The notes below the pieces were generated by a model. The model did not search any database. It was given only the letters and a program-made list of their open reading frames with translations, and was not told where the DNA came from. DNA of 32,411 nt. It comes from Gaiellales bacterium. Lineage in GTDB: Bacteria; Actinomycetota; Thermoleophilia; Gaiellales; JAICJC01. Positions 7,838 to 13,930 of this stretch are shown here, piece by piece (within the stretch, counting starts at the first letter, position 1; each line of letters starts with the position of its first letter). Both the position numbers and the translations under genes were made by a program. Location: positions 1 through 32,411 of the forward strand of contig DASUHM010000020.1 of assembly GCA_036273515.1 (NCBI GenBank), in the 5' to 3' direction.

Positions 7838-8913
7838 GGCGGCCAGGATGCTAACGGCGAGGCTGCCACGACCTCGGCGATGCGGGCGGACGCGTCGCCG
7901 TCGCCGTAGAGCGGCGGGTGAGTCGCGGGGAGCTCGAGCCCGGCCAGGGTCGTCGCGACCGCCGCTGCGTCCAGGCCGCCCGTGAGGCGGTTCCAGCCGA
8001 GCTCGATCGTCTCCACCCACTCGCTCGTGTCGCGCAGGGTGATGCACGGCACCGAATGCAGGTACGCCTCCTTCTGCACCCCGCCGGAGTCGGTCAGGCA
8101 CACGCCGGCCGAGAGGAGCAGCGCGGTGAACTCGAGGTAGCCGAGCGGCGGGGTGAGCGTCGCCGCCGCCTCGGCCCGGCCGAGCAGCCCGGCCGCCTCG
8201 AGCGCCGCCCGGGTGCGCGGGTGGATCGGGAAGACGGCCGGCCGCCCGAGCGTCTCCAGCACCTCGACGAGCGCCGGCATGGCCTCCGCGGAGGTGTTCG
8301 ACTGGCGATGGACGGTGACGAGGGCGTAGCCGCCCGGCTCGAGGCCGAGCCGCGCCACGATGCCCGTGCGGCGGGCCGCCGGCCCGAACGTGCGGGCGAC
8401 GTCCACCATCACGTCGCCGACCAGATGGACGCCCTCCGTGATCCCCTCGGCGGCCAGGTTCGCGACGGCGGTCTCGCTGGGGCAGAAGCGCAGGTCGGAG
8501 ACGACGTCGGCGACGACCCGGTTCACCTCCTCCGGCATGGCCCGGTCGAACGAGCGCAGGCCCGACTCGACGTGCCCGAGGCGCAGCTGCAGCTTGGCGG
8601 CGACGAGCGCCCCGGCCAGGGTCGAGTTCGTGTCGCCGTAGACGAGCACCAGGTCGGGCCGCTCGCCGGCGAGGACCGGCTCGAGGCCCGTGAGCATGGC
8701 CGCCGTCTGGACGGCGTGACTGCCCGAGCCGGCCTCGATCTCGTGGTCGGGCGGCGCCAGGCCGAGCTCGTCGAAGAACACCTGCGAGAGCTCGGCGTCG
8801 TAGTGCTGGCCCGTGTGCACGAGCACGTGGTCGGACACCTGCCCCAGCGCGGCCGCGAGCGGCGCCGCCTTGATGAACTGCGGCCGGTTGCCGACGACGG
8901 AGACGACCTTCAT
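7834..8913 (-). CDS. non-hydrolysing UDP-GlcNAc-type 2-epimerase, WbpI-like
   Basis: 359 residues of the WecB/WbpI family: VVGNRPQFIKAAPL, LVHTGQHYD, LVYGDTNSTLAGALVAAKL, HVESGLRSFDRAMPEEVNR, IHPRTRAAL, LTDSGGVQKEAYLHSVPCITLRDTSEWVET and a C-terminal LYGDGDASARIAE. The last motifs are closer to my memory of WbpI (UDP-2,3-diacetamido-glucuronate 2-epimerase) than to WecB; that is memory-based and should be tested by phylogeny. The enzyme inverts C2 to give the manno-configured sugar. First of the four sugar genes, overlapping the dehydrogenase start (ATGA), with 31 bp between it and the thioredoxin gene upstream. Confidence 0.88.
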   Translation of the reverse strand: MKVVSVVGNRPQFIKAAPLAAALGQVSDHVLVHTGQHYDAELSQVFFDELGLAPPDHEIEAGSGSHAVQTAAMLTGLEPVLAGERPDLVLVYGDTNSTLAGALVAAKLQLRLGHVESGLRSFDRAMPEEVNRVVADVVSDLRFCPSETAVANLAAEGITEGVHLVGDVMVDVARTFGPAARRTGIVARLGLEPGGYALVTVHRQSNTSAEAMPALVEVLETLGRPAVFPIHPRTRAALEAAGLLGRAEAAATLTPPLGYLEFTALLLSAGVCLTDSGGVQKEAYLHSVPCITLRDTSEWVETIELGWNRLTGGLDAAAVATTLAGLELPATHPPLYGDGDASARIAEVVAASPLASWPP

Positions 8914-8944
8914 GGCGCCGCCAGACTACCGGCGGGAGGTGCCG

Positions 8945-9484
8945 TCAGGCCTGCAGCAGCGCGTCGAGCACCTGGGCGATCGGCTGTGTGCCGATCTTGC
9001 CGGCGTGCTGCCAGGCGATCCGGCCCTGCTGGTCGACGACCACCGTGGTCGGCTTGCCGTAGAGCCCGAACTTGTAGGCCAGGTCGTCGTCCTGGTCGAA
9101 GACGATCGGCCACGTCCAGTGGTAGTGGGAGATGAAGTGCATGGTGCCCGGGCGGGTGTCGTCGATCGCGATCCCGACCATCTGCACCTTCGAGCCGAAG
9201 TCGCGCCCGAGCTTGGCCAGGCCGGCGGCCTCCTGCCGGCAGGGGGCGCAGTTGCTGGCGAAGAAGTTGATGACGACCGGTTTGCCGGTGAACCGGCGCA
9301 GGTCGACCGGCTGTCCCGTGAGCGCCGCGCGATCGAACGCCGGCGCCGGCTTTCGGTCGGCCGTCTTGATCGGCGTTGCCCTGCGGTCGGTCAGGAGCGA
9401 CATGTGCATCTGGCCGTAGACCACGATGCCGGCCACGGCGGCCGTCCCCGCGACGATGGCCGCGATGATGAGCAGCCTGCGCAC
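8945..9484 (-). CDS. membrane-anchored TlpA-like thiol-disulfide oxidoreductase
   Basis: 179 residues. An uncleaved signal anchor (MRRLLIIAAIVAGTAAVAGIVVYG) leads into a thioredoxin-like redoxin domain: AFDRAALTGQPVDLRRFTGKPVVINFFASNCAPCRQEAAGLAKL with the CAPC active site, the usual TlpA insert, then LYGKPTTVVVDQQGRIAWQHAG with the cis-Pro. Such proteins reduce or oxidise cysteines outside the membrane, for example in cytochrome c maturation or of partner exported proteins. It sits 19 bp after the M42 peptidase gene and 31 bp before the epimerase on the same strand, so it is probably co-transcribed. The partner is unknown; a link to the Cys-rich surface proteins further on is only speculation. 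Confidence 0.85.
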   Translation of the reverse strand: MRRLLIIAAIVAGTAAVAGIVVYGQMHMSLLTDRRATPIKTADRKPAPAFDRAALTGQPVDLRRFTGKPVVINFFASNCAPCRQEAAGLAKLGRDFGSKVQMVGIAIDDTRPGTMHFISHYHWTWPIVFDQDDDLAYKFGLYGKPTTVVVDQQGRIAWQHAGKIGTQPIAQVLDALLQA

Positions 9485-9503
9485 GGCCGTATCGTATGCG
9501 GAA

Positions 9504-10556
9504 CTACGAGATGGCGGGCAGGTCGTCGAGCCTGCGGGAGACCGCGGCGATCAGGGCCGCCACGGCCTCGAGGTCGCCGAGGTCGACGATCTCGTTCGGC
9601 GAGTGCATGTAGCGGTTCGGCACGCTGACGACGCCGCAGCGGATCCCCGCGCGGCTCAGCTTGACCGCGTCGGCGTCCGTGCCGGTCGAGCCGGACGACG
9701 CGCCGAACTGGACGGGGATGCCCTCGGCCTTCGCCACCTCGCCGATCAGGTCGAACATGACCGGGTGGACGCCCGAGCCGCGCTCGATGACCGGCCCGCC
9801 GCCGAGCTTGATCTCGCCCACCTTGCGCTTGGGCACGTTGGGCTGGTCGGACGTGTGGGTGACGTCGATGATGAGCGCCGCGTCGGGGTCGAGCCCGAAC
9901 GCCGACGTGTAGGCGCCGGAGAAGCTCGTCTCCTCGCCCACCGAGCCGACGCCGACCAGCTTCCACGTCCCCGGCTTCTCGGCGTAGAGGCGGGCGGCCT
10001 CGGCGGCCACGAACGCGCCGGCGCGGTTGTCGACCGCCCGGCTGGCGATCCGCGAGCCGACCAGGTCGACGATGGGCACCTCGAGCACGGCCAGGTCGCC
10101 GACCTGCACCCGGGCGCGGGCGTCGTCGCCGTCCGCCGCGCCGATGTCGATCCAGAGCTGGTCCACCTTGAGCGGCTTGTCGCGCTCCTCCTGATCGGTC
10201 AGGTGCGGCGCCTTCTGGCCGACCACGCCGGTGATCGGGCCGTCCTTGGTGAGGATGCGGATGCGCTGGGCGACGAGCACCGCCGCCACCCAGCCGCCGA
10301 CGCCGCGGAACCACAGGTAGCCCTCGTCGTCGATGTGGGTGACGACCAGTCCGATCTCGTCGATGTGGCCCAGCACGGCCACCGACTGCTTGCCGTCAGG
10401 GTTCACGGTGGCGTAGCAGGAGCCGAGCGCGTCGCCGTGGACGTCGGCGAAGCCGGACGCGTACCTGCGCCAGACCGCAGCGGCCTCGCGCTCGTCGCCC
10501 GACGGCCCTGCGGCCTCGAGGAGGTCTCGGAAGAAGGTTTCGGAGTCTGCCCGCAC
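9504..10556 (-). CDS. M42-family metallo-aminopeptidase
   Basis: 350 residues. Metal-binding and catalytic blocks of the M42 (PepA/FrvX/CelM) co-catalytic aminopeptidases are all visible: LGHIDEIGLVV, ASRAVDNRAGAFVA, VGSVGEETSFSGAYT with the Glu-Glu pair, LIIDVTHT and NRYMHSPNE. The middle insert (about residues 85-165) is the PDZ-like dimerisation domain. These are cytoplasmic, usually oligomeric enzymes that trim peptides. The GTG start (10556-10554) lies nine bases from a TATCCT box, suggesting a near-leaderless message. Probably the first gene of the transcript that continues through tlpA and the sugar genes. Confidence 0.9.
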   Translation of the reverse strand: MRADSETFFRDLLEAAGPSGDEREAAAVWRRYASGFADVHGDALGSCYATVNPDGKQSVAVLGHIDEIGLVVTHIDDEGYLWFRGVGGWVAAVLVAQRIRILTKDGPITGVVGQKAPHLTDQEERDKPLKVDQLWIDIGAADGDDARARVQVGDLAVLEVPIVDLVGSRIASRAVDNRAGAFVAAEAARLYAEKPGTWKLVGVGSVGEETSFSGAYTSAFGLDPDAALIIDVTHTSDQPNVPKRKVGEIKLGGGPVIERGSGVHPVMFDLIGEVAKAEGIPVQFGASSGSTGTDADAVKLSRAGIRCGVVSVPNRYMHSPNEIVDLGDLEAVAALIAAVSRRLDDLPAIS

Positions 10557-10565
10557 CGGCGCGGC

Positions 10566-10571
10566 AGGATA
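10566..10571 (-). promoter_or_regulatory. -10 box of the M42-tlpA-sugar operon
   Basis: TATCCT on the minus strand, ending ten bases before the GTG start of the M42 gene, as expected for a leaderless or near-leaderless actinobacterial message. No canonical -35 is seen. Two GGTGCGG heptamers (10583-10589 and 10591-10597) occupy the adjoining upstream DNA, shared with the tRNA promoter on the other strand. Confidence 0.45.
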
Positions 10572-10608
10572 GCGGGTCCGGCGGTGCGGCGGTGCGGGGA
10601 CGCGTTGG

Positions 10609-10614
10609 TAGACT
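10609..10614 (+). promoter_or_regulatory. -10 box of tRNA-Lys
   Basis: TAGACT ends ten bases before the tRNA 5' end, an appropriate -10 position. The -35 region is not TTGACA-like; it holds GGTGCGG repeats at 10583-10597 instead. Confidence 0.45.
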
Positions 10615-10624
10615 GGCCGACCCG

Positions 10625-10697
10625 GGGCCGTTAGCTCAGCTGGTAGAGCAGGGGACTCTTAATCCCAAGGTCGAAGGTTCGATCCCTTCACGGCCCA
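10625..10697 (+). tRNA. tRNA-Lys (anticodon CTT)
   Basis: 73 nt cloverleaf. Acceptor stem 10625-10631 pairs perfectly with 10690-10696, discriminator A10697. D stem GCTC/GAGC (10634-10637, 10646-10649), anticodon loop 10656-10662 with CTT at 10658-10660, T stem GAAGG/CCTTC (10673-10677, 10685-10689) with loop TTCGATC. The outermost anticodon-stem pair is a G-A mismatch (10651/10667). CCA is not encoded. Its 3' 44 nt are part of the 45-bp direct repeat that bounds the mini-island, so integration re-created an intact gene. Confidence 0.95.
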
Positions 10698-10698
10698 T
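10654..10698 (+). repeat. attL: 45-bp direct repeat inside tRNA-Lys
   Basis: Runs from the anticodon stem through the discriminator base of the tRNA plus one base. Identical at every position to 12055-12099 (offset 1401 bp); the first flanking bases differ on both sides (10653 G versus 12054 A; 10699 G versus 12100 C). Confidence 0.93.
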
Positions 10699-10793
10699 GC
10701 CCGTTTGCGGCTCAACCTTGCCGTTTCCGGGCTGTCGGCTGGGCTGGCCGACGGCGCGGTATGCGGCCGTTGCGAACGCCCTGCTAACGCGGG

Positions 10794-10840
10794 CGCTCAG
10801 CGCGGGACATGTTAGGCGCCCGCTCAGGGCGGGACATGTA
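10794..10840. repeat. imperfect tandem repeat within the island
   Basis: CGCTCAGCGCGGGACATGT (from 10794) recurs as CGCTCAGGGCGGGACATGT (from 10821), 27 bp apart, followed by a further partial GCGGGAC at 10841. Such GCGGGACATGT units could be recombinase arm sites or a remnant of an insertion-sequence end; the sequence alone does not decide. The rest of 10698-10865 shows nothing I recognise. Confidence 0.6.
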
Positions 10841-10865
10841 GCGGGACGAAAGTGTGGCGTCCCGC

Positions 10866-11026
10866 TCACTCGCCCGAGCTCGCGATCAGGTCGGCTGCGA
10901 GCGCCGCAACCGTCTCCTGGACGGCCGGGATCACGTGGCTGTAGACGCGCAGATGAGCGCGGGGTCGCCGTGCCCGAGCCGGTCGGCCACGAGCTTGGGG
11001 TGGACGCTTAGCTGCAAGAGATGTTG
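10866..11026 (-). pseudogene. C-terminal relic of a tyrosine recombinase (integrase), frameshifted
   Basis: On the minus strand one frame reads LLQLSVHPKLVADRLGHGDPALI (about 11020-10952), the conserved box around the LGH motif. A second frame continues as LRVYSHVIPAVQETVAALAADLIASSGE to the TGA at 10866. YSHV contains the nucleophilic Tyr. Restoring one C between ATC and TGC (near 10952) joins the two into a normal phage-type integrase C-terminus, so a single-base deletion broke the frame. The N-terminal and core-binding domains are gone. It lies next to attL, where an integrase gene is expected, and accounts for how the island arrived. Confidence 0.8.
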
Positions 11027-11069
11027 GCGTCCGCCCGGAGGCGGCCGTGCTTTCTTCTCCGTCCGCGCG

Positions 11070-11126
11070 CGATGTTACGCTCGCTGCTTCGCCATGCGAA
11101 CCCCCCGCAACGCGAGCGTAACATCG
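11070..11126. repeat. 15-bp perfect inverted repeat upstream of hicAB
   Basis: CGATGTTACGCTCGC (11070-11084) and its exact reverse complement (11112-11126) are separated by 27 bp. The long loop makes it a poor terminator. It may be a protein-binding pair, an old recombination site, or the boundary of a deletion between the integrase relic and hicA. No coding sequence is credible between 11030 and 11217. Confidence 0.65.
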
Positions 11127-11217
11127 TACGCTCGGGGTGGTGCCTCTTCGCATGCCCGTTGCGAGCCGGCCGGCCATGTGAACGAGCCATTTCCCCCGTC
11201 CGGGGGGCGCACTCCCC

Positions 11218-11247
11218 TTGCAGTCTGGCGATACTAGGGGTAGTATC
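11218..11247 (+). promoter_or_regulatory. hicA promoter with overlapping operator palindrome
   Basis: TTGCAG (11218-11223), a 17-bp spacer, and TAGTAT (11241-11246) form a good -35/-10 pair; the GTG of hicA is six bases further, so the transcript is probably leaderless. The inverted repeat GATACTA-GGGG-TAGTATC (11230-11247) covers the -10 box, the expected place for autorepression by the HicB DNA-binding domain or the HicAB complex. Confidence 0.75.
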
Positions 11248-11252
11248 AACGC

Positions 11253-11486
11253 GTGACGATCGAGGAAAAGCTCGACTCACTCAAGACCCGCCGACGCAGC
11301 GTCCCCCCAGACGAGATGCACGCACTTCTGTCCGAGGCGGGATTCGACCACCGCTACGGGAAGGGCGACCACTGGGTCTACACGCACCCAGCCAGGCGCT
11401 TCCCACTTGTCATCGACCCCCGAAATCCACTCTTGCCGACGTACGTCAGCAAGGCGATACGAGCCATAGAGGAGGTGCTTCAATGA
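11253..11486 (+). CDS. hicA: HicA-family toxin (mRNA interferase)
   Basis: 77 residues from a GTG start six bases after the -10 box. VPPDEMHALLSEAGFDHRYGKGDHWVYTHPARRFPLVIDPRNPLLPTYVSKAIRAIEE follows the HicA pattern: helix, glycine turn, a beta hairpin with the catalytic-type His (His40 in GDHWVYTHP), then the closing helix. HicA folds like a double-stranded RNA-binding domain and cleaves mRNAs to arrest growth until HicB binds it. It is slightly longer than usual (about 60 residues) because of an N-terminal extension. It overlaps hicB by four bases (ATGA). Cargo of the tRNA-Lys mini-island. Confidence 0.85.
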   Translation: MTIEEKLDSLKTRRRSVPPDEMHALLSEAGFDHRYGKGDHWVYTHPARRFPLVIDPRNPLLPTYVSKAIRAIEEVLQ

Positions 11487-11866
11487 ACATCGACGACTAC
11501 CTGGGCCTCCCGTACACCATCGAACTAACCCCCGACCACGATGACGACGGCCGCACCGGTTGGGTCGCAGAAGTCGAAGAGCTCCCCGGCTGCATCACCC
11601 AGGTCGACGCGCTCGACGAGCTCGAGGCGAGCATCCGCGACGCCATGACGGCGTGGATCAGCGTGGCACTCGAGGACGGCCGCGACATCCCGGCCCCGCG
11701 GAGTGAGCAGAGCTACAGCGGACGGTTCCTGCTCCGACTGCCCAAGAGCCTCCACGGCGATCTAGCCCACGAGGCGGAGCGGGAGGGCGTCAGCCTGAAT
11801 CAACTCGTGACGTCGATGCTGGCCGCCTCGGTCGGCTGGCATCACCGCCTCCGCGAAACCGCCTGA
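11483..11866 (+). CDS. hicB: HicB-family antitoxin
   Basis: 127 residues. The N-terminal partial RNase H-like HicB fold reads YTIELTPDHDDDGRTGWVAEVEELPGCITQVDALDELEASIRDAMTAWI; the ELPGC box is typical of the family. The C-terminal segment YSGRFLLRLPKSLHGDLAHEAEREGVSLNQLVTSMLAASVGW is a ribbon-helix-helix DNA-binding domain. HicB neutralises HicA and represses the operon, probably at the palindrome 11230-11247. The start is set by GGAGG at 11471-11475 and the ATGA overlap with hicA. Between its stop and the attR repeat (11867-12054) I see no further gene. Confidence 0.88.
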   Translation: MNIDDYLGLPYTIELTPDHDDDGRTGWVAEVEELPGCITQVDALDELEASIRDAMTAWISVALEDGRDIPAPRSEQSYSGRFLLRLPKSLHGDLAHEAEREGVSLNQLVTSMLAASVGWHHRLRETA

Positions 11867-12054
11867 AGCTCCTCGTCCCGGTGGCTAGAAGGGACGCTGG
11901 GGGTCGAGGGAGGCCGCCTGCGAGCGGCCTGCTAACGGATGGCGCGTGCGGGGGCGATGCTGGGCGATACGAGCAGGCATGCCGACGGCAGCTAGCCCGC
12001 ATGGTTGAGCGGACTAGCGGCACGCGGCGATACGCGGTGTTACGGGCGGTCGGA

Positions 12055-12099
12055 GACTCTTAATCCCAAGGTCGAAGGTTCGATCCCTTCACGGCCCAT
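12055..12099 (+). repeat. attR: second copy of the tRNA-Lys 3' end
   Basis: Perfect copy of 10654-10698. It lacks the acceptor 5' strand, the D arm and half the anticodon stem, so it is not a tRNA gene. The last codons and stop of the minus-strand ATPase gene (12089 onward) lie inside it. This implies that, before the island arrived, the ATPase reading frame ended within the tRNA-Lys gene itself. Confidence 0.93.
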
Positions 12100-13234
12100 C
12101 CGATCCGTGCTCGCCGGTGTCGCGCAGACCGGCGATCCACTCCTCGAAAAGCGGGTCTGTGAGCGCGTAGCGATCGCCCTCGCGCTCGACGAGGGCGCTC
12201 GCCTGGAGCGCCACCAGGGCCGAGCGCGCGCTCGACTTGGCCAGGCCGAGGCCCTCGAGCACGCGGGTCTGGAACGGCGAGCCGCCGGTGGCGGCCAGCG
12301 AGCGAAGCGCCTTCTGCTCGTTGGTTGAGAGGTGGCGCCAGCCGGCGTCGAACTCGGCCGCGAGCTCGGCGAGGGCGGCGGCGTGGGCGCGCGCCCAGTG
12401 CGCCAGGCCGGCGGTGCCCTCGGGCGGCACCTCCTCCCACAGCCGGTGGGCGAGCAGCATCGCCCGCTGGGGGTGGCCCCTGGCCGAGGCGACGAGCGGG
12501 TTTGCCGCCTCGCCGACGCTTCGGCCCGACTCGCGGAAGCGCTCGGCGACGTAGGCCGCGATGTCGGCGTCTGCCAGCCGGCCGAGCCGCATCGGCACGG
12601 CCTGGCCGTAGAGCGGCCGATCGCGCACCTCGAAGAGCTCGCGCATGAGCCCCGGCTCGGAGCCCGCGAACACGAACGACGCCACCTCGCCCTGGAACTG
12701 GATGTGGCTGCGCAGCAGCGCGTCCATGCCCTCGACCCGGGTGACGTCCTGGAACTCGTCGAGGACGACGAGGGCCCGGAATGCGCCGCCCTCCTCGAGC
12801 CGCAGGGGCAGGTCGAGCAGCGCGTGCAGCGCCGGCAGCGGATCGGTGCGCGGCTCGACCTGGAGGCGGGCGCTGATCCCGAGCGCGCCGAGGGAGAGGC
12901 CGAGGCCGGTGGTCTGCAGGAACTCCTCGATCCGGGCGCGGGCCTTGCCCTTGAGCTGGCGGGCGTAGGCGCGCTCGAAGCGGATGGCGACGTCCGCGAT
13001 CGAGAGCACGCCGTAGAGGTCGACCAGGATCGGGATCATCCGCTCGCGCCGCTCGGCGTCGCGCAGGACGCGCCGCAGCAGGCTCGTCTTGCCGTACTTG
13101 CGGGGCGCGTACAGGCGCACGAAGTGACCGCCGACCGCGGCGGCGAGCAGCTGCCCGGTCTCGGCGTCGCGGTCGATGACGTCGTCCGGCGCGATCGGAT
13201 GCGAGTAGATGAACGGGTTCGTGTCGGTCAGCAT
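12089..13234 (-). CDS. AAA ATPase (ATPase_2/STAND-like) with C-terminal winged helix
   Basis: 381 residues from ATG 13234 (an in-frame TTG at 13255 lies inside the likely promoter). FVRLYAPRKYGKTSLLRR is the Walker A loop (about 43-51), RALVVLDEFQDV the Walker B (about 154-163), FVFAGSEPGLM sensor 1 (about 187-197), and LSTNEQKALRSLAATGGSPFQTRVLEGLGLAKSSARSALVALQASALVEREGDRYALTDPLFEEWI a winged-helix domain. This order is typical of the PF01637-type ATPases, poorly characterised proteins often suspected of signalling, DNA transactions or defence. No effector domain is present. The gene ends inside attR and is preceded by the GGTGCGG array. Function unknown beyond ATP binding and likely DNA binding. 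Confidence 0.85.
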   Translation of the reverse strand: MLTDTNPFIYSHPIAPDDVIDRDAETGQLLAAAVGGHFVRLYAPRKYGKTSLLRRVLRDAERRERMIPILVDLYGVLSIADVAIRFERAYARQLKGKARARIEEFLQTTGLGLSLGALGISARLQVEPRTDPLPALHALLDLPLRLEEGGAFRALVVLDEFQDVTRVEGMDALLRSHIQFQGEVASFVFAGSEPGLMRELFEVRDRPLYGQAVPMRLGRLADADIAAYVAERFRESGRSVGEAANPLVASARGHPQRAMLLAHRLWEEVPPEGTAGLAHWARAHAAALAELAAEFDAGWRHLSTNEQKALRSLAATGGSPFQTRVLEGLGLAKSSARSALVALQASALVEREGDRYALTDPLFEEWIAGLRDTGEHGSDGP

Positions 13235-13324
13235 GGTGCGGAGATATCGTACCAAACGGTGCGGAAACGCCGCACCAGATTCGGTGCGTGATCACCGCAC
13301 CGGCCGGTGCGGGCCGGGCGCACC
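13235..13324. promoter_or_regulatory. array of GGTGCGG / CCGCACC boxes upstream of the ATPase gene
   Basis: Exact heptamers at 13235-13241, 13258-13264 and 13306-13312 (GGTGCGG) and 13270-13276 and 13295-13301 (CCGCACC), plus one-mismatch copies at 13283-13289 and 13318-13324. They pair as palindromes: 13258-13276 has 7-bp arms and a 5-bp spacer, and 13295-13312 is a perfect 18-bp palindrome. The array begins at the ATPase start codon, covers its promoter (possible -10 TACGAT at 13251-13246) and faces the surface-protein operon. Most likely a multi-site operator. Confidence 0.75.
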
Positions 13325-13344
13325 GCAGGGAATCCCCCGTTCTC

Positions 13345-13408
13345 GGTATCGGTCTATACCGGTCGGCAGCCGATTGGTGAAGAGGACGTCTGCTCCCCGC
13401 CTGGGAGC
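13345..13408 (+). promoter_or_regulatory. possible promoter and leader hairpin of the surface-protein operon
   Basis: GGTAT (13345-13349) and ATACC (13356-13360) form a short inverted repeat containing TATACC, a possible -10 box; no clear -35 is visible. Downstream, GCTCCC (13392-13397) and GGGAGC (13403-13408) make a 6-bp hairpin in the leader. The ribosome site AAGAGGA precedes ATG 13445. The promoter assignment is tentative. Confidence 0.4.
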
Positions 13409-13444
13409 GGACGGGCTTCCTTCCCCCCTTCTCAAGAGGATCCC

Positions 13445-13930
13445 ATGAATCGGAAACGTCTCGTGCGCTTCGCCGTGACGGCTGTCATCGGTCTCGCCAT
13501 CGCCGGTGGCGCCGCCTATGCGGCCTGGACGGTCAACGGCAGCGGCTCCGGCACTGCGTCGGCCGCTTCCGCGCAGGGCCTGACGCTCACCGCCGGCTCG
13601 GCCAGCGGCGTTCTCTATCCGGGTGCGACCGCCGACGTGGACACGTCGGTCGGGAACACCAACCCCTTCCCCGTGCACGTCAGCAGCATCGCGCTCGACA
13701 CGACCCAGGGCCAGAACGGCTTCGCGGTCGATGCCGGCCACAGCGGCTGCAACCTGGGCTCCCTGTCGTTCACCACCGCCACCAACGGCGGCAGCGGCTG
13801 GGACATCTCCGCCAGCTCCTCGCTCGACGTCGACGCCGCGAGCTCCATCACGATGGGCTCTGGCGCGAACGATTCCTGCCAGGGAGCGACGTTCACGGTC
13901 TACCTGACCGCCACGGCCGCAAGCGCATAA
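13445..13930 (+). CDS. small secreted protein with SipW-cognate-type signal region
   Basis: 161 residues. The N-terminus RFAVTAVIGLAIAGGAAYAAWTVNGSGSGTASA resembles the SipW-cognate class of signal peptides found on TasA/camelysin-like surface subunits (small-residue membrane helix followed by an aromatic and Gly/Ser/Thr turn). The mature part is rich in Ser, Thr, Gly and Ala, with predicted beta structure and two Cys (GCNLG and DSCQGATF) that could form a disulfide. The stretch LYPGA, NTNPFPV and SCQGATFTVYLTATA recurs in the 147-residue protein two genes downstream, so the two are paralogues. ATG chosen for AAGAGGA at 13434-13440. Export is supported; a structural surface role is inferred. 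Confidence 0.75.
   Translation: MNRKRLVRFAVTAVIGLAIAGGAAYAAWTVNGSGSGTASAASAQGLTLTAGSASGVLYPGATADVDTSVGNTNPFPVHVSSIALDTTQGQNGFAVDAGHSGCNLGSLSFTTATNGGSGWDISASSSLDVDAASSITMGSGANDSCQGATFTVYLTATAASA

Follow-up and report, generated by a model that had tools for sequence, protein, structure and literature searches.

RHH-type HicB antitoxins of Y. pestis and B. pseudomallei are described in PMC11594946 as binding palindromes that overlap the -10 element of their promoters, and for the E. coli hicAB module the account given in PMC10865869 has the transcript from the HicB-controlled promoter P2 yielding HicB and not HicA. Leaderless toxin-antitoxin (TA) operons are likewise on record: PMC4963859 reports three such loci in Synechocystis, all with the toxin gene first, and PMC3898074 gives leaderless messages for 32 of the 37 M. 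tuberculosis TA pairs with a primary start site, as well as for about a quarter of all genes. Mycobacterial mRNAs that begin with ATG or GTG at +1 are robustly translated, as presented in PMC4633059, and other codons in this position fail.

Here we analyse a toxin-first hicAB operon in a 32,411-nucleotide stretch of a Gaiellales bacterium contig (the window, at its full length). We propose that the operon is of the RHH type and very probably self-regulated, from a promoter that is leaderless for the toxin and carries a HicB operator on its -10 element.

The hicAB genes, their relatives and their probable insertion at tRNA-Lys

The toxin gene hicA (11253-11486, plus strand) begins with GTG and encodes a HicA-like protein of 77 aa; no in-frame ATG, GTG or TTG occurs between the preceding stop codon and 11253. 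It lies directly upstream of the antitoxin gene hicB (11483-11866, plus strand, 127 aa), the arrangement of class 4 hicAB modules with their RHH HicB. Within the 3' end of hicA, a Shine-Dalgarno sequence AGGAGG (11470-11475, plus strand) is read directly 7 bases before the hicB ATG (11483-11485), which itself overlaps the hicA stop codon (ATGA), and the strong hicB ribosome site of the preliminary description is thereby borne out. Its assignment of the pair to hicAB also holds, by Pfam matches, although HicA scores below the cut-off: HicB matches PF05534 (E 1.1e-12) and PF15919 (E 4.7e-8), both above cut-offs, and HicA matches PF07927 at E 9.6e-5 and 22.9 bits, under the Pfam cut-off of 27. 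Among three hicAB relatives, HicA passes the PF07927 cut-off in one (L008, 28.4) and HicB passes that of PF05534 in all three. An N-terminal TRRRSV motif (codons 12-17) and a GKGDH motif are invariant in all four aligned HicA sequences, and by analogy the histidine of the latter would be the catalytic one. The single PDB match of HicA is 1whz, deposited as a hypothetical protein (E 2.2e-6), and HicB matches the HicB structures 6hpb and 6u0i over profile positions 28-82 (E 0.002); neither protein was matched in NCBIfam or in PADLOC. The RHH fold of HicB is tentatively assigned from Pfam, PF05534 being an RHH family, together with a weak match (E 0.016) to AmrZ, an RHH protein as well; a strand-helix-helix arrangement is seen in a structure model of low confidence (pLDDT 46).

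With the HicA profile, hits were obtained in at least 4 of 129 genomes of the order at E 0.001, at least 4 of 399 genomes of the class at E 1e-8 and at least 1 of 396 genomes of the phylum at E 1e-10, the last being the window's own; genomes of the class and the phylum were sampled, and part of the first-pass HicA candidates was scored. No HicA relative was found in the viral contigs, plasmids and phages searched. HicB was present in 18 of the 129 order genomes, the window's own included; eight of the other 17 loci were read upstream, and the remaining nine (L013-L021) matched over the C-terminus only. Of the eight, three carry hicA upstream of hicB (L005, L007, L008) and four have no hicA within 420 bases upstream (L006, L010, L011, L012); at L009, whose HicB is similar to those four, the upstream DNA is too short to judge. 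The HicB-like genes of these four loci sit downstream of an apparent sigma-factor-type gene, and at L006, L011 and L012 a TANNNT hexamer stands 7-9 bases before a GTG. A single HicB scan of a collection of genome contigs gave two distant loci (L003, L004). More general hicA matches occurred in 133 of the 399 class genomes; among the matches listed, 30 loci could be compared, about 13 of them toxin-first by a crude motif, and the leaderless layout appeared in 3 of these 13 versus none of the 17 others.

The operon occupies a 1.4-kb segment (10698-12099) beside a tRNA-Lys gene (CTT; 10625-10697, plus strand; detected by ARAGORN and Rfam), which forms the left edge, and the right edge is marked by 48 bases (12052-12099, plus strand) that repeat the 3' end of the tRNA at 98%. 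Sister genome G121 lacks 10698-12104 and has 52 bases instead, its flanks (7977-10697 and 12105-13546) being otherwise contiguous; in a second sister genome, G120, the left flank was matched and no right-flank match was found at its locus. The alignments point either to the insertion of some 1.4 kb, hicAB included, at the tRNA or to its later loss from G121; the repeat of the tRNA end speaks for an inserted element. We conclude that hicAB appears to be the remnant of a small integrated element, acquired with it at tRNA-Lys. The minus strand of the segment holds a probable, frameshifted C-terminal remnant of a tyrosine integrase (10866-11062), recognised by eye in two-frame translations that read VHPKLVADRLGHGDP and YSHVIPAVQETVAALAADLI; the one frame searched gave no Pfam match. 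Between this remnant and the hicAB promoter lies an inverted repeat (11065-11084 and 11112-11131) with 20-nt arms that are 90% complementary and 27 nt apart, which may be an attachment site or be terminator-like. The minus strand of 12089-13255, at the right-hand border of the insertion, encodes an AAA-type ATPase-like protein that scores below cut-off in the Pfam AAA families.

The hicA promoter and its leaderless layout

The preliminary description had proposed a compact promoter immediately in front of hicA, and its string, spacing and coordinates are exact to the base: 11218-11255 reads TTGCAG (11218-11223), a 17-bp spacer (11224-11240), TAGTAT (11241-11246), CAACGC (11247-11252) and the GTG start codon (11253-11255), all on the plus strand. 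The same stretch was compared with that of G035, a genome of the same order and another family that holds the nearest hicAB relative found, its hicA being 81% identical. There the -10 hexamer TAGTAT is identical, and hicA starts with TTG 7 bases downstream of it, as against 6 bases to the GTG in the window. TTGCAG as the -35 element is not supported by this reading: the hexamer matches TTGACA at 3 of 6 positions, a promoter scan of 10700-12200 at a threshold of 9/12 found no promoter, no TTGCAG-like hexamer stands at -35 spacing in G035, and the leaderless-type promoters of the genome, surveyed below, show no -35 consensus. We retain it as a proposed and weakly supported element.

Leaderless starts were surveyed, independently of annotation, in a 316,514-base sample of this genome that takes in the window. 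We kept 205 open frames with a stop-to-stop length of 300 bases or more and a start no closer than 240 bases to the end, picked by length and GC bias, and considered up to six candidate starts per frame within its first 40%; hicA is too short to enter this sample. In 52 of the 205 genes a TANNNT hexamer preceded a candidate start by 6-9 bases, versus 7 of 205 at the control distance of 16-19 bases, and at distances of 0-5 bases the count was 0 or 1 per position. The 53 leaderless-type starts comprise 28 ATG, 24 GTG and 1 TTG codons, and for 38 of them the frame offers no start further upstream. A strict ribosome site was found at some candidate start in 51 of the 205 genes, five genes having both signals. 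These counts suggest that leaderless messages are probably ordinary in this genome, as PMC3898074 indicates for M. tuberculosis.

The only ribosome-site-like sequence in front of hicA is a weak AGGGG (11236-11240), 12 bases before the GTG and not conserved in G035. Transcription usually starts at the seventh base after the -10 element; since TAGTAT ends six bases before the GTG, the usual start falls on the G of the hicA start codon, and we predict it at 11253 on the plus strand. The distance of 6 bases falls within the spike at 6-9 that this genome shows, in agreement with the leaderless hicA start predicted earlier. In the model that we favour, RNA polymerase would recognise TAGTAT and begin transcription at or next to this G, giving a two-gene hicAB message that is leaderless for the toxin, from which hicB would be translated through its own strong ribosome site and through coupling at the ATGA overlap.

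Alternatively, hicA may be read from a longer upstream message, through an internal ATG (11316) or the AGGGG as ribosome site, and not be leaderless at all. E. coli hicAB does have an upstream promoter, P1, in the description of PMC10865869, and two TACGCT hexamers and one TAACAT hexamer lie 120-171 bases upstream, but the inverted repeat (11065-11131) contains all three in its arms, apart from a single base by which the last extends beyond. The in-frame ATG, at codon 22, is common to G035, yet the TRRRSV motif that is invariant in the four aligned sequences precedes it, and the CATT that replaces GGGG in G035 leaves no ribosome site there. We consider a longer message unlikely.

The dyad over the -10 element

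The palindrome that had been noted over the -10 element is a perfect 7+4+7 dyad (11230-11247), in which GATACTA (11230-11236) and TAGTATC (11241-11247) flank GGGG. In the 316,514 bases sampled from this 72% GC genome, 928 perfect dyads have 7-bp arms and a spacer of 0-8, and only three of them are AT-rich (at least 5 of 7 arm positions A or T), the hicAB dyad being one; dyads of such length are common in GC-rich DNA, and this one is unusual because AT-rich composition is rare. Allowing up to three mismatches, its pattern occurs once in the window (mean of 0.08 in shuffles), and with up to two mismatches it occurs at two places in the 4.07-Mb genome, of which the hicAB copy is the only perfect one.

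With the operator as the anchor of the alignment, the window and G035 share 13 of 14 arm bases, compared with 0 of 4 in the spacer and 17 of 40 upstream; the left arm of G035 reads GATACCA and its spacer CATT. Conserved arms with a diverged spacer are what would be expected for a two-fold symmetric protein contacting half-sites one helical turn apart. The same promoter layout was found in this one relative. Two further genomes of one genus, G036 and G037, differ very little from each other in this region and have retained hicAB without the layout: a TANNNT is missing at 6-9 bases before their hicA ATG, a TACYGT abuts the ATG, and in G037 a shorter dyad, TACTG-TATG-CAGTA, covers it, its counterpart in G036 being poorer. 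Across the 399 class genomes, the operator pattern with at most one mismatch was found at 5 places, two of them the hicAB promoters of the window and G035, versus 14 places in 13 genomes for a reversed control pattern. By itself the pattern shows no enrichment, so the case for an operator rests on the position of these two places. The other three lie inside a frame that looks membrane-protein-like by eye (L058), between frames (L059) and some 70 bases before a gene named IclR-like by eye (L061). With the arms conserved in G035 and RHH-HicB palindromes lying over the -10 element elsewhere, as PMC11594946 describes, the predicted operator-like dyad is well supported as a probable site for HicB (or HicAB). 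We propose that HicB, alone or with HicA, would occupy both half-sites, which are spaced by 11 bp, thereby blocking the -10 element, and that a drop in HicB or an excess of HicA would lift the repression.

The dyad might instead be the by-product of two facing TAGTAT hexamers in divergent promoters, with no protein site involved. The left arm does read TAGTAT on the minus strand (11236-11231), and TCGTCA, 17 bp upstream on that strand, matches TTGACA at 4 of 6 positions, no worse than the plus-strand -35 candidate. The GATACCA of G035, however, breaks the minus-strand hexamer (TGGTAT) and leaves the dyad nearly intact, no minus-strand TANNNT being present there, and, as far as the 1.4-kb segment goes, the broken integrase-like remnant is all that the minus strand beside the site shows, so that divergent promoters are improbable as the source of the dyad. 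Control by another regulator of the element or the host is likewise improbable: the related HicBs of G036 and G037 do go with a different site arrangement, but no second perfect copy of the site exists in the genome, and G035 has the site again at its own hicAB promoter despite the 17/40 upstream agreement, HicB carries the PF05534 domain, and in the experimentally analysed modules covered by PMC10865869 HicBs autorepress their operons.

Translation of the toxin and comparison with known systems

That the leaderless layout biases translation toward HicB, as first suggested, is possible but unproven. Roughly one in four of the sampled genes show the layout, which is therefore not by itself the mark of a weak message. 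Our 53 leaderless-type starts agree with the mycobacterial ATG/GTG rule, by which, if it may be extrapolated to this lineage, the GTG of the window would be translated and the TTG of G035 poorly so. A search for WhiB, as an actinobacterial marker, found none in this genome, and its 23S copy is partial, so that applying mycobacterial rules is an extrapolation. As the window's message retains its GTG, HicA could well be produced. In favour of a bias are the outcome at E. coli P2 and the TTG start of hicA in G035; an excess of HicB could also arise from coupling and the strong hicB site without a weak hicA start. A more speculative reading, which we hold to be doubtful, is that the HicB-controlled promoter of this lineage grades or abolishes toxin initiation, from the leaderless GTG here through the near-leaderless TTG of G035 to a HicB-only message from inside hicA in G036 and G037, whose TANNNT directly adjoins the hicA ATG. 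If this graded reading were true, one promoter would do the job of E. coli P2, and derepression would be antitoxin-first despite the toxin-first gene order.

The operon of the window resembles class 4 hicAB (Y. pestis hicAB3 and B. pseudomallei hicAB, in the classes set out in PMC10865869) in having the toxin gene first and, probably, a C-terminal RHH-type HicB domain, and also in the position of the palindrome over the -10 element (as described in PMC11594946). Y. pestis hicAB3 differs in its two operators and 174-bp intergenic gap, features given in PMC11594946, whereas the toxin message of the window is predicted to be leaderless. With E. coli hicAB the operon shares a HicB-controlled promoter, predicted in our case; the E. 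coli module, as portrayed in PMC10865869, differs in its second promoter P1 and its HTH HicB, and the window shows only the proximal promoter. The Synechocystis loci sll1651, sll1965 and ssl7039 are alike in being toxin-first and in starting transcription at the toxin start codon, a position mapped there according to PMC4963859, but they encode DUF497 or RelE toxins and not HicA, and belong to a cyanobacterium. The M. tuberculosis TA operons were compared in leaderlessness, which they share with the predicted message of the window. Genes 90-91 of mycobacteriophage Adephagia form a HicAB-like pair with a predicted leaderless transcript, from which our operon differs in that their antitoxin comes first and is the leaderless gene, as stated in PMC11373665. 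A leaderless toxin-first hicAB is not described in the available text of PMC4963859, PMC3598666, PMC3898074 and PMC11373665, which does not prove its absence from the literature.

The finding leaves the general picture of hicAB unchanged. Some 35 bp hold the start codon, the promoter and the predicted operator together in this compact, well-preserved case, which makes the locus a simple object for studying a possible advantage of the antitoxin under a leaderless message with the toxin first. Leaderless TA operons, among them some with the toxin first, were already known, as were RHH-HicB palindromes that cover the -10 element; the hicAB operon of the window, as we read it, combines the two.
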